A DNA stretch of 64,000 bases from Granulosicoccus sp. (GTDB lineage: Bacteria > Pseudomonadota > Gammaproteobacteria > Granulosicoccales > Granulosicoccaceae). Below are positions 6,278 through 50,293 of the stretch, in pieces (the first letter of the stretch is position 1; each line of letters opens with the position of its first letter). Below the pieces are notes generated by a model that was not told the DNA's origin, did not search any database, and worked only from the letters and a program-made list of their open reading frames with translations. Both the position numbers and the translations under genes were made by a program. The stretch is from positions 1 through 64,000 of the forward strand of contig JALZWO010000055.1 of NCBI GenBank assembly GCA_023300375.1, read 5' to 3'.

Positions 6278-6982
6278 ATGTCTAGTGAAAAACCGATAGC
6301 TCAGGACAACGACAAGAGACCTGAAACAAAGACGACGTTGGCAATTGAAAATGCGCCAGTGACTAAAAAGATCGACGACTCGCGCTTAGTGACTTCGATG
6401 CCGAGGAGTCTGTCAATTCCAGCAACCGTCATTCTCGAAAGACGCATGATCAGCCGTTCGTTCTGGTCCATGCCTTCGTGGTACTTGCATGCAGTAGCCA
6501 CTGGCAGTCACTTGGTAGCAGGTGATGCAAGAGCCCATGCTCGAGGAACGCCTACTGGCGAGAGTGAGCAAGGCGCTTTATTTGCTTGGTCAGGTCTTGA
6601 GGTCACCTTGTATAAAGATGCCTGTGAGCGCTATTGGCATGCGCTGATTGGCGATAAACCTTTGGTTTATGTTGTTTGTCGTGATTTGACTGACGAGAGC
6701 GTGGGCGAAGATAGCTGCGATCTCACTATGAGGCCGGTATCAGTGACCGTCGACTACGATGAAGCCTCGGCTGCGGCTGAAACTGATGATCCTGTGTTTA
6801 GCAGACCCATTACAGGTGAGCTCTACAAGTACATGGAAGAGTTTGTTCTCGCTCATTACAAGCCGCAAGAGTTTAAAAAACGCAAGCGGCGCGATTGGTC
6901 AGCTGAAGGTAGTCGTCGTCAAAATAGCACAGCTGATTCGCATGAAAAAGATCATGGGCAGTTGAGTCGAGGCAAAGGGTGA
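6278..6982 (+). CDS. DUF3305-like formate-dehydrogenase-associated protein
   Basis: 'ATVILERRMISRSFWSMPSWYLHAVATG...LFAWSGLEVTLYKDACERYWHALIGDKPLVYVVCRD' as in DUF3305; position ahead of DUF3306 and ferredoxin. Confidence 0.75.
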   Translation: MSSEKPIAQDNDKRPETKTTLAIENAPVTKKIDDSRLVTSMPRSLSIPATVILERRMISRSFWSMPSWYLHAVATGSHLVAGDARAHARGTPTGESEQGALFAWSGLEVTLYKDACERYWHALIGDKPLVYVVCRDLTDESVGEDSCDLTMRPVSVTVDYDEASAAAETDDPVFSRPITGELYKYMEEFVLAHYKPQEFKKRKRRDWSAEGSRRQNSTADSHEKDHGQLSRGKG

Positions 6983-7788
6983 CTGATCAAAAACCCTTTT
7001 TAAATCGTTGGTCACAGCGTAAGCAACAGGCTAAAAACGCTGACTCCAGTGCCAGTGCTGATGTGAGTGCTTTAACGGATAGCCAGTTACATAATTTGAC
7101 TGATGATTCAGTGGGTACAAATGGTATTTTGTTGTCAGGTTCCGCCGAAGGATTAGATGAACTGCACCTCGACGATTCCCCATCTGGCGATACAGAAATA
7201 ACGCAAGGCCCGTCTTCCGAAGATGAGCTGCTGCTTACAGATGATGACATGCCTGCTATCGACTCTCTAGCGGCGGATAGCGATTTGAGTGCATTCTTTA
7301 ACAAGGGTGTGAGTGCTGCACTTAGAAAGTCGGCATTGCGGCATGTATTCCAATTGCCTCAATTTAATGTGCGCGACGGTCTCAACGACTACGACGGCGA
7401 TTACACTGTTTTTGAGCCTCTGGGCGATATCGTAACTTCTGATATGAAGTGGCATACAGCCAGAAAAGAGCGAGCACGGCTTGAAGCCGAAGAATTAAAG
7501 CAGCAAGAATTAAAGCAGCAAGAACTAGAGCAGCAAGAACTAGAGCAGCAAGAACTAGAGCAGCAAGAACTAGAGCAGCAAGAACTAGAGCAGCAAGAAA
7601 CAGAATCGCAAGTGGTTGACACAGACGAGCCAGAGATTCTTGAGGTTGAAGCTACGGAGCAGGCGCTGGATAACAGTGAATCCGATCATCTTACAGCCAA
7701 TGATGCTATCAGTCTCGAGCAAGAAAGCCACGAAGCTCTGGCTATTGAAAGTAAAGATGCAAATATCGACACAGAGATAAACACATGA
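6979..7788 (+). CDS. DUF3306-like formate-dehydrogenase-associated protein with C-terminal EL(K/E)QQ repeats
   Basis: 'FLNRWSQRKQQAK' N-terminal signature; 'RHVFQLPQFNVRDGLNDYDGDYTVFEPLGDIVTSDMKWH'; 4-bp overlap with upstream and downstream genes suggests translational coupling. Confidence 0.75.
   Translation: MTDQKPFLNRWSQRKQQAKNADSSASADVSALTDSQLHNLTDDSVGTNGILLSGSAEGLDELHLDDSPSGDTEITQGPSSEDELLLTDDDMPAIDSLAADSDLSAFFNKGVSAALRKSALRHVFQLPQFNVRDGLNDYDGDYTVFEPLGDIVTSDMKWHTARKERARLEAEELKQQELKQQELEQQELEQQELEQQELEQQELEQQETESQVVDTDEPEILEVEATEQALDNSESDHLTANDAISLEQESHEALAIESKDANIDTEINT
7492..7596 (+). repeat. In-frame 15-bp tandem repeat, 7 units (2x gaattaaagcagcaa, 5x gaactagagcagcaa)
   Basis: Read directly; encodes (ELKQQ)2(ELEQQ)5 inside the DUF3306 gene. 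Confidence 0.97.
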
Positions 7789-44395: not shown

Positions 44396-44667
44396 GGTGG
44401 ATACCTTGTAAATATGTATAAAAATTAAGACTTACGGCGCACAATAAAGCGAAAATATCAGGAAACGTCATTCCCGTGCATGCTAAGAATCCAAGATCAT
44501 TAGCCAGAGGGATCGCCACTTACATGGGGATGACGAGAATCAGTTAGCGTAATTAAGGTTAAGACTGATTTTCACTGATAAACGTGGATGGTCGACAATT
44601 ATCATTCAAATTTTACACGTTATGATTTTGACGGTAGCAAATATTACAAAGAAATTAAAGCAGCCGT

Positions 44668-44727
44668 AGTGAGCAATGATAGTAGGCAATGATAGTAGGC
44701 AATGATAGTAAGCAATGATAGTGAGCA
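44668..44727. repeat. 13-bp tandem repeat, about 4.6 units (consensus agtRRgcaatgat)
   Basis: Read directly: agtgagcaatgat agtaggcaatgat agtaggcaatgat agtaagcaatgat agtgagca. Confidence 0.92.
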
Positions 44728-46032: not shown

Positions 46033-46806
46033 ATGCAAAGATTAAATGGAAAGTGCGCTTTGATCACCGGATCTGCCCGAGGTATAGGTCGTGCGTTTGC
46101 GCAAGCCTATATTCGCGAAGGGGCCAAGGTGGCGATAGCCGATATTGATTTCAACGCGGCCACCGATACGGCTAAGCAACTAGGTGATAGTGCTATCGCT
46201 ATTCATCTAGATGTCACTTCGCAGTCGAGTATCGATAAGGCCGTTGCACAAACTATTGCCACTTTGGGGGAAATCGATATCCTCATTAATAATGCTGCAT
46301 TGTTTTGTGCTGATGGCATTGTCGATATCAAGCGAGAGGATTATCAGAAACTTTACGACGTCAATGTGGCTGGTTCCTTGTTTACGCTTCAGGCTGTAGC
46401 CCGGCACATGGTTGATCGCGGCGAAGGTGGAAAAATTATCAACATGGCCAGCCAAGCTGGCAGGCGAGGTGAGCCTTTGGTCGCTGTTTATTGTTCGACC
46501 AAAGCTGCCATCATTTCCTTAACTCAGTCAGCGGGTATGAATCTCATACAACACGGCATAAACGTCAATGCGATTTCGCCGGGAGTGGTAGATGGCGAAC
46601 ATTGGGTTGGCGTTGATGCAGAATTTGCTCGGTTAGAAAACTTGCAGCCGGGTGAAAAGAAAAAGCAGGTTAGTGCAGGAGTACCTTTTGGGCGTATGGG
46701 TACGGCAGAAGATCTCACTGGTATGGCTGTGTTTCTGGCATCGACGGAGGCTGATTACATTGTTGCCCAGACTTATAACGTTGATGGTGGACAGTGGATG
46801 AGTTGA
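46033..46806 (+). CDS. Short-chain dehydrogenase/reductase (polyol/sorbitol dehydrogenase-like)
   Basis: 'ALITGSARGIGRAFAQAYIREGAKVAIADID', 'NNAA', 'YCSTKAAIISLTQSAGMNLIQHGINVNAISPGVVDGEHW'. Confidence 0.9.
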   Translation: MQRLNGKCALITGSARGIGRAFAQAYIREGAKVAIADIDFNAATDTAKQLGDSAIAIHLDVTSQSSIDKAVAQTIATLGEIDILINNAALFCADGIVDIKREDYQKLYDVNVAGSLFTLQAVARHMVDRGEGGKIINMASQAGRRGEPLVAVYCSTKAAIISLTQSAGMNLIQHGINVNAISPGVVDGEHWVGVDAEFARLENLQPGEKKKQVSAGVPFGRMGTAEDLTGMAVFLASTEADYIVAQTYNVDGGQWMS

Positions 46807-46912
46807 TGGGTCAATTACCCCTTGTCACTGCTAGTGCAAAACTCTCGAGTTATACCAATGAAAATGTCCCACTCTGGGGCATTTCTGGCGAAGGTCTTTG
46901 CTTGGCTAAATT

Positions 46913-46954
46913 TTCTTGCGAGTTGTAGATGTTACGTCCTTGGACTCGCAAGAA
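46913..46954. repeat. Perfect 10-bp inverted repeat TTCTTGCGAG-N22-CTCGCAAGAA
   Basis: Read directly in the intergenic interval after the SDR gene. Confidence 0.85.
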
Positions 46955-47015
46955 CACATACTCAACTTTTCTGTTTGACAATGAAGACGTTTTTATAGGT
47001 CATGGCCAGGAGGAC

Positions 47016-47786
47016 CTACAGGTGGTTAAATTTAAACCACCTGATTTCATTCATAGCGTGTTTTGCGTTGATAGCAGCATACGTTCCGTTCTGCTTAATG
47101 GTCTTTAGGCCCTCATTGAAGGCTGCAATTATTTTTTTGATTTAACGTTGTTCAATTCAATGCACTAGTGACGTGCAAATCATTGGTTGAGAGCGCATTC
47201 TTGGTGTATGCACGTTTGCTCTTCAATTCTGGCGCTTCGGTTGCTATTTTAGTACGGGCTACAAGTTCATCTTCAACCGTGTAATCGAGTCTGCCAGCAT
47301 CGACCTTCAACAGATTATTTAGCAAGTTGTTAGTCTCTATCCGCTCGAAGTTGCTTGCATTCAAAAATTGCTCGCTGTAAGCGTAATCTGGAATAACTCC
47401 AATATTTTTCCCAGTCAGGCTTTCCAGGCCTTCACACTCAAAATCATCATCAATACGCTTTATGATTTTGATTTGGTTTTGCAGGTACATATCGCTATAT
47501 CTTAAAGTCTCAGTTCGCTCTTCTGTCCACCAGACAGCAATCAGTACATCGTATTTTCTCGATCTAACACCACTTATTGCTTGCGCCCAAGGGATGAATT
47601 TCATCTCAAGTTCATAACCTTGTGATTCGAAAGCCGCACGGACAATTTCTACCATAATACCCTGGCCTGGAAGGTCAGGGCCCTTTAAACGATAAGTATG
47701 GGTTAGCCACTCCTGTAATTTTTTGCGTAACTGATAGGCGACACAATCGCCATCAAAAGTAGCGCCGTAACCAGTATTATTTTCAT
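47016..47786 (-). pseudogene. Frameshifted amino-acid-type (family 3) ABC solute-binding protein
   Basis: ATG 47786 signal peptide 'MKIILVTALLLMAIVSPISYAK', then shifted frame 'QKITGVANPYLSFKGP', then ORF 47152..47655 'GPDLPGQGIMVEIVRAAFESQGYELEMKFIPWAQAISGVRSRKYDVLIAVWWTEERTETLRYSD', then another frame 'IKKIIAAFNEGLKTIKQNGTYAAINAKHAMNE' ending at TAG 47016-47018. Confidence 0.85.
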
Positions 47787-48053
47787 GATAAATACCTCAG
47801 TAGGTTGCCTTGTAAATTCACTCTGCGATGCCTGTGGATTCAACGAGACTAGATTGCCCGATGTTCACAAGCGGGGTAGTCGAATAGCGACTGTGTGTAA
47901 AAGCAATTGAGTCGTGTATGTAAAGTAAAAATTGTATTGAAGTTGATCAATATTCCTATCAGGTTAGTGGGCGTCATTAATGCGCAGCCATTGCTATCAA
48001 TTCGTTATTGATCGTTCTAGATGACAAAAACGAAAGTAAGTCATGCTATTGCA

Positions 48054-48181
48054 TTAATACGTTAATACGTTAATACGTTAATACGTTAATACGTTAATAC
48101 GTCAATACGTCAATACGTCAATACGTCAATACGTCAATACGTCAATACGTCAATACGTCAATACGTCAATACGTTATTACG
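48054..48181. repeat. 8-bp tandem repeat, 16 units: 6x TTAATACG, 9x TCAATACG, 1x TTATTACG
   Basis: Counted directly from the sequence; exact 128 bp. Confidence 0.97.
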
Positions 48182-48464
48182 TCACTGGGGTAGTGCATAA
48201 GATTGTCATAGGGTGATCTTGAGTCGCTGTGTTAGTACCGTTTTCAACCTGCTGGCACTGCAACGCTTCTGTCCGTTTTTTCTCGTTGTGTACACGGTTT
48301 CACCACTGTATCGCGCTCAACCTTGCGGGTAACCGTGTCAAAAACTGTTTGGCGAGTATCTTGTCGATCGTTCACGCGGCGATGAGTAGTTTTAATGAGC
48401 TAGTTATATCGCTTGAGTGCCTATGTGTGAGTAATTACACCAGATCGATAACAGCTTCTCCCGG

Positions 48465-50293
48465 ATGAGGAAACGCCCTGATATGTTGCCTATGACAGAC
48501 AACGATAATAATGGCCCAGTTAATTTGAGCTGGCACAGTCGTTTGCAATTTAGGGTAAGCGTCTTGCTTGTTGTTCTAGTAACTGCAGTCATGCTGAGCT
48601 TCAGCATATACGGCGCTTTGAGTGTCAATTCAGAACTGCAAGCTAACCTTGAAAAACATCTGAACACTGTGACCTTGCGAGCTTCAAGCAGTGTCAAATC
48701 TTCCGTCTGGGACATGGATCAGGGAAATTTACTTTTGGCGTTGGAAGCAGAGCTATTAGATGTGCGCGTACATACACTGGAAGTGTTGGATGTTGACGGA
48801 AGACTGCTCGCATCTTTGACTCGGGATTTGCAAGGTAACGTTGTTGGCTATGGAACTACAGATCAACCCGCAGGTAAGCTTCTACAAGAGCAGAGTGAAA
48901 TCGTCTTCGAAGATGAGGTCATAGGGACGATGAAGGTTTATGTCGATATGAGTTATAAAGACCTTGCTTTAAAAAATTATTACTATGATCAGAGTCTGCG
49001 GACCATATTGCTGATTATCATATTGGTGGTGGCAGTGGGTGGGGCGTTACGCGTTATGCTTATAAAGCCTTTATCGAACCTGACAGTGGCAGCAGAATTA
49101 GTCAGTAAGAACAAGTTTGATATCGATATCGATATTGGCTCACGTGATGGAGTGGGAAGGTTGGCAAAAGCACTCGAAGTGTTCAGACAGAATGTTCTCG
49201 AGAAACTACGCCTGCAAGAGAGACAGGAGAATGCAGCAAAGATTCAGCAGAAGCAGGCAGCTGAAAATCAACGTATGGGCAGTGTAAGGCGAAAGGCCGA
49301 GGAGCAACAAAGGCAAGAGCAGATTGAGATAGCTGCAAAAGAGTCTGTACAAGCCCGTGAATTACAACTTCGCGCAGATGAGCTATTGCCGATTGTTGAT
49401 GCTGCAGCGTCAGGTGATTTGTCACAGCGGATAAGCCTCAAGGGAGACGATGTTATCGGGCAAATCGGTATTAAATTAGAAACCTTGTTTGAACGTCTAC
49501 GTGGAAGCCTTGGCAGTATTGGTGGCAGTGCAGTAGCGCTGGGCTAAGCTTCAAACACGCTGACAACAATTAGCTCTGATATGTCAGGTAATGCAGAGGA
49601 GATATCGTCCCGGGCAGCAATGGTTACTGCCGTGGCGTCTGATATTGGCGATGGTGTTGAAAACGTAGCCGTTGCTGTTGAACAAAAGCGAATAACGATC
49701 AAAGGAATTGCTGATAATGCGGTTTAAGCAACCACAGTGGTGACAGAAGCTGCGACGATTACCGAAAGCACCAATGCGGTGGTAAAGAATCTTGCAAAAT
49801 CCTCTATGGGTATTGGTGAGGTAATCAAAGTTATAACGTCGATAGCTGAGCAAACTAACCTACTTGCACTCAATTCGACAATAAAAGTAGCCCGTGCTGG
49901 AGACGCTGGTAAAGGCTTTGCTGTCGTGCCAATGAAGTGAAAGAACTGGCTAAGGCTACCAAGGAAATCAGTCAACGAATAGCTGCGATTCAGTCAGATA
50001 GCCATAGCGTTAACGATTCTATCGGCGGTATCAGTCAGATCATTGGTCGTATCAATGAGCTGCAGGGTGTGATCTCGGGATCTGTTGATGAACAAGCGAA
50101 TGCTACAGGCGAGATATCTCGCTCAGTGATTGAGGCCGCACGAGGTAGTGGCGACATTACGGGGAGCATCACGGCAGTAGCGAAAGCTGCTAACGGGACT
50201 CTATAAAATGCTCAGAACGCTCAGAATGCGGCCTTTGAGCTTGATGAAATGGCGACACGCGTGAACGAGCAGCTCGCCCAGTTCAATCTGTAG
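48465..50293 (+). pseudogene. Methyl-accepting chemotaxis protein, degraded (three in-frame TAA stops and one 1-nt deletion)
   Basis: ORF 48465..49547 has TM-periplasmic-TM-HAMP; TAA at 49545-49547, TAA at 49725-49727, hairpin '[30 protein letters not shown]' then frameshift near 49928 ('gtcgtg-ccaatgaagtgaaagaa' for expected VANEVKE), continuing '[23 protein letters not shown]...', TAA 50204-50206, tail 'NAQNAQNAAFELDEMATRVNEQLAQFNL' to TAG 50291-50293. Confidence 0.9.

Follow-up and report, generated by a model that had tools for sequence, protein, structure and literature searches.

The tandem array at positions 48054–48181 of the window, the 64,000-nucleotide stretch of Granulosicoccus sp. 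DNA analysed here, is very probably a lineage-specific octanucleotide repeat of the VNTR type. It would have expanded through slippage during replication, in an intergenic region that is decaying, and is probably neutral. No present function of the array is indicated.

Sequence and setting of the array

Direct reading together with Tandem Repeats Finder (TRF) gave the structure (TTAATACG)6(TCAATACG)9(TTATTACG)1, sixteen 8-bp units spanning 128 bp. The location, number of units, length and block order are all as given in the preliminary description of this DNA. That description also called the array perfect, which holds inside the 48-bp and the 72-bp block but not for the 16th unit, which carries one mismatch against the T block and two against the C block. 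The count of 16 is the copy number as assembled, in a draft assembly of 247 contigs. The features of the locus are as follows.

47152–47788, minus strand: SBP_bac_3 (solute-binding protein family 3) pseudogene, frameshifted after the signal peptide
47814–48285, no strand assigned: 472-bp segment with the array, missing at the syntenic locus of the nearest congener, G008 (comparison with G008)
48054–48101, plus strand: array block 1, six units of TTAATACG (direct reading, TRF, unit list)
48102–48173, plus strand: array block 2, nine units of TCAATACG (direct reading, TRF, unit list)
48174–48181, plus strand: terminal variant unit TTATTACG (direct reading, unit list)
48465–50290, plus strand: methyl-accepting chemotaxis protein (MCP) pseudogene, with internal stops and a frameshift

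The array is far longer than expected by chance. TYAATACG occurs 19 times in the window against 2.95 expected, a count reached in none of 100 shuffles, and the longest exact period-8 run measures 79 bp, whereas the longest in 20 windows simulated with a third-order Markov model were 15–21 bp. Head-to-tail 8-bp units so far above chance are the mark of a VNTR-type repeat.

The array occupies the common 5′ region of two divergent genes, SBP_bac_3 and MCP, both of which are degraded, as had been noted before. The SBP_bac_3 gene is a pseudogene because its signal peptide and mature part lie in different frames, and the MCP gene is interrupted by stops and a frameshift relative to its orthologue in G008, the top match within the genus, which is intact and encodes 612 aa. 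The array stops 283 bp before position 48465, where the MCP gene starts, in agreement with the earlier figure of about 280 bp.

These features allow us to propose how the array may have arisen. An 8-bp word would have been duplicated by chance where two dying genes left the DNA between them unconstrained, and the repeat would then have grown through slipped-strand mispairing in replication, or through unequal recombination. If one unit acquired a T-to-C change and further local slippage passed it on to adjacent units, two homogeneous blocks would result. The invariant ACGT at each unit junction could pair with the next one, and the resulting 4-bp hairpins, which either strand could form, may facilitate slippage. 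Single-strand folding of the array gave only such 4-bp ACGT hairpins, repeated along its length (z-scores of −2.2 and −2.6), and no difference between units affects the ACGT core. Slippage is supported by the block-wise homogeneity of the units and by the pseudogene flanks. The stepwise expansion that the preliminary description read from the two blocks is the natural reading and is consistent with their homogeneity, although we infer slippage itself from one genome of the species.

Distribution of the unit and of similar arrays

Within the assembly, 48054–48181 is the sole TYAATACG array; further arrays of the unit, which had been suggested as something to look for, are absent, and a single locus is at odds with a dispersed octamer family of the HOOF-Print kind. 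Arrays of the unit were found in none of the 26 congeners over two genus-wide runs, G017 being the only one with two adjacent units, and in none of 368 other genomes of the class. This confinement to one locus in one lineage favours slippage.

Among 38 relatives searched, G008 alone matched the locus. Gene order there is the same, but the 472-bp segment is missing and the solute-binding protein remnant directly abuts the MCP upstream region; this arrangement also supports slippage. The missing segment could equally reflect loss in G008. Such loss is at least as likely, since most of the solute-binding protein pseudogene is gone from G008 too and the segment would carry the upstream region of that gene.

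A TRF survey of about 289 kb of other stretches of the source genome, together with the window, returned three further arrays, perfect or near-perfect: TTAGCTGTA in 9.6 copies, ACTCAA in 20 and a 10-bp unit in 3.3.

L065, 8921–9006: 9-bp array, at a contig end
L084, 1–121: 6-bp array, at a contig end
L073, 1–33: 10-bp array, at a contig end

The position of all three suggests that the draft assembly may break at repeats; no arrays were present at 20 further contig starts. TRF analysis of 400 kb of the complete congener G023 gave AAGAAC in 14 copies, GAATCT in 9.5 and a 12-bp unit in 21.5. Given the perfect arrays in both genomes, short-unit arrays are a regular feature of these genomes, as would be expected if slippage had produced the present one.

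The window itself holds two arrays of longer period. At 44667–44727 a 13-bp unit, TAGTAAGCAATGA, is repeated 4.7 times between genes; the gap measures about 345 bp here and about 80 bp in G008. At 7490–7612 a 15-bp unit, AAGAACTAGAGCAGC, is repeated 7.3 times and may be coding, its period being a multiple of three.

One scan of genome_contigs found TYAATACG in tandem (at least three exact units) in 14 contigs from distant, mostly unrelated taxa. The neighbouring genes were likewise unrelated, the Photorhabdus group excepted, and the occurrence of the tandem octamer in unrelated contexts supports slippage. Three Photorhabdus species carry (TTAATACG)n at one locus with similar flanks, in 7.6, 7.5 and 12.5 copies.

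L028, 3571–3877: Photorhabdus locus with (TTAATACG)n
L039, 1557–1835: Photorhabdus locus with (TTAATACG)n
L040, 432–531: Photorhabdus locus with (TTAATACG)n

The same octamer unit is therefore able to change in number, which favours slippage and lends indirect support to the suggestion in the preliminary description that the locus is highly mutable. By analogy the present array may also vary in length; Brucella offers known examples of hypervariable octamer loci (PMC1183211). With 16 units it is the longest of its kind in the survey, a point that we counted against the slippage explanation. L028 and L039 also carry a second perfect octamer array some 80–90 bp away, with the unit TGCTTAAA in 20.8 and 16.5 copies.

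In viral_contigs, TYAATACG was present in four contigs; three control octamers were present in 3, 5 and 39. The controls being about as frequent or more so, nothing points to an enrichment of the unit, and over-representation in nature is unsupported; this too is in keeping with slippage. The control with 39 contigs, TYATAACGTYATAACGTYAT (L141–L179), owes its number mostly to a few recurring phage contexts, most of the contigs falling into two, one of which has ATGACGT words downstream. A literature search for the doubled unit returned no match.

Alternatives to neutral slippage

A position between two divergent genes, in the 5′ region common to both, would suit a relict promoter spacer or length-dependent switch, active on the MCP or solute-binding protein gene before these genes decayed, much as the preliminary description had imagined a past promoter-spacing switch. 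We consider this very unlikely. A sigma-70-type scan of 47600–48600 found no promoter-like site at or around the array (2.8 expected in shuffles), 283 bp separate the array from the MCP start, and G008 keeps an intact MCP gene without the array or the 472-bp segment. With both flanking genes pseudogenes, there is also no functional gene for phase variation to switch. A structured RNA was rejected for lack of any Rfam match in 46800–48700 up to E = 1. The earlier proposal of a protein-binding array would make the repeat an operator, an iterated site for a DNA-binding protein, for which KfrA-type repeat operators offer a precedent. The KfrA operator of RA3 is built of five 9-bp direct repeats (PMC7783346), and in a Comamonas contig (CAMELV010000004.1; L033, about 6510–6595) about 11 TTNATACG octamers immediately precede a KfrA_N gene and are a candidate KfrA operator whose unit is 8 bp and not 9 bp. 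KfrA_N is the sole repeat-binding family that the data suggest, yet no KfrA_N protein is encoded in the source genome (97.5% complete) or in G008, and the KfrA_N loci of congeners lack octamer arrays. The lack of a KfrA_N protein led us to reject a KfrA operator in the source genome. The array is also not conserved in the genus and its neighbours are pseudogenes, and an operator of any kind is very unlikely. A broader version, in which many bacteria have a repeat-binding protein, KfrA-like or from another family, that recognises TTNATACG octamer arrays, the present array being such a site relocated or left as a relict, seems to us more doubtful still.

The 472-bp segment, array included, might instead be a small inserted mobile element. 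Its absence from the G008 junction would fit this, as would the direct repeat of 4 bp (TTGT) that borders it (47810–47813 and 48286–48289) and that G008 has as a single TTGT. No further copies exist in the genome or genus, however: the non-repeat parts of the segment gave no above-background match in the genus and none in plasmids. The TTGT match is equally consistent with a microhomology deletion in G008, where most of the neighbouring pseudogene has been lost as well, and we regard an insertion as highly improbable. Least credible is an assembly artefact, which would concern the exact copy number or block order and not the existence of the array. The draft state of the assembly and the three other perfect arrays at contig ends speak for it, but here the contig runs on at both sides and both the block boundary and the terminal variant are resolved.

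Comparison with known repeat systems

If the locus is a neutral product of slippage, it has little significance in itself, would be usable as a strain-typing marker, and adds to the cases in which a long-unit repeat has arisen in intergenic DNA under decay. It would acquire a wider meaning only with a specific binding protein. The array resembles the KfrA operators of broad-host-range plasmids (PMC7783346), in which short units are directly repeated in a 5′ region, and the likeness extends to the near-identical octamers upstream of the one Comamonas KfrA_N gene. It differs from them in lacking a kfrA gene, in having many more copies and in lying between pseudogenes, whereas RA3 has a 9-bp unit in five copies.

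The heptameric simple sequence repeats of Xanthomonas and Nostoc (PMC4692102) are likewise long-unit and mostly intergenic, and vary between close relatives. Those heptamers are G-rich, form G-quadruplexes and exist in many dispersed copies, in contrast to the AT-rich, single array described here. Another parallel is offered by the HOOF-Print loci (hypervariable octameric oligonucleotide fingerprints) of Brucella (PMC1183211). The Brucella unit is found at at least eight loci with copy-number variation shown between isolates, whereas the present one is seen at one locus in one strain. Both consist of 8-bp units in tandem at chromosomal loci, and by this analogy the array probably belongs with the Brucella octamer loci.
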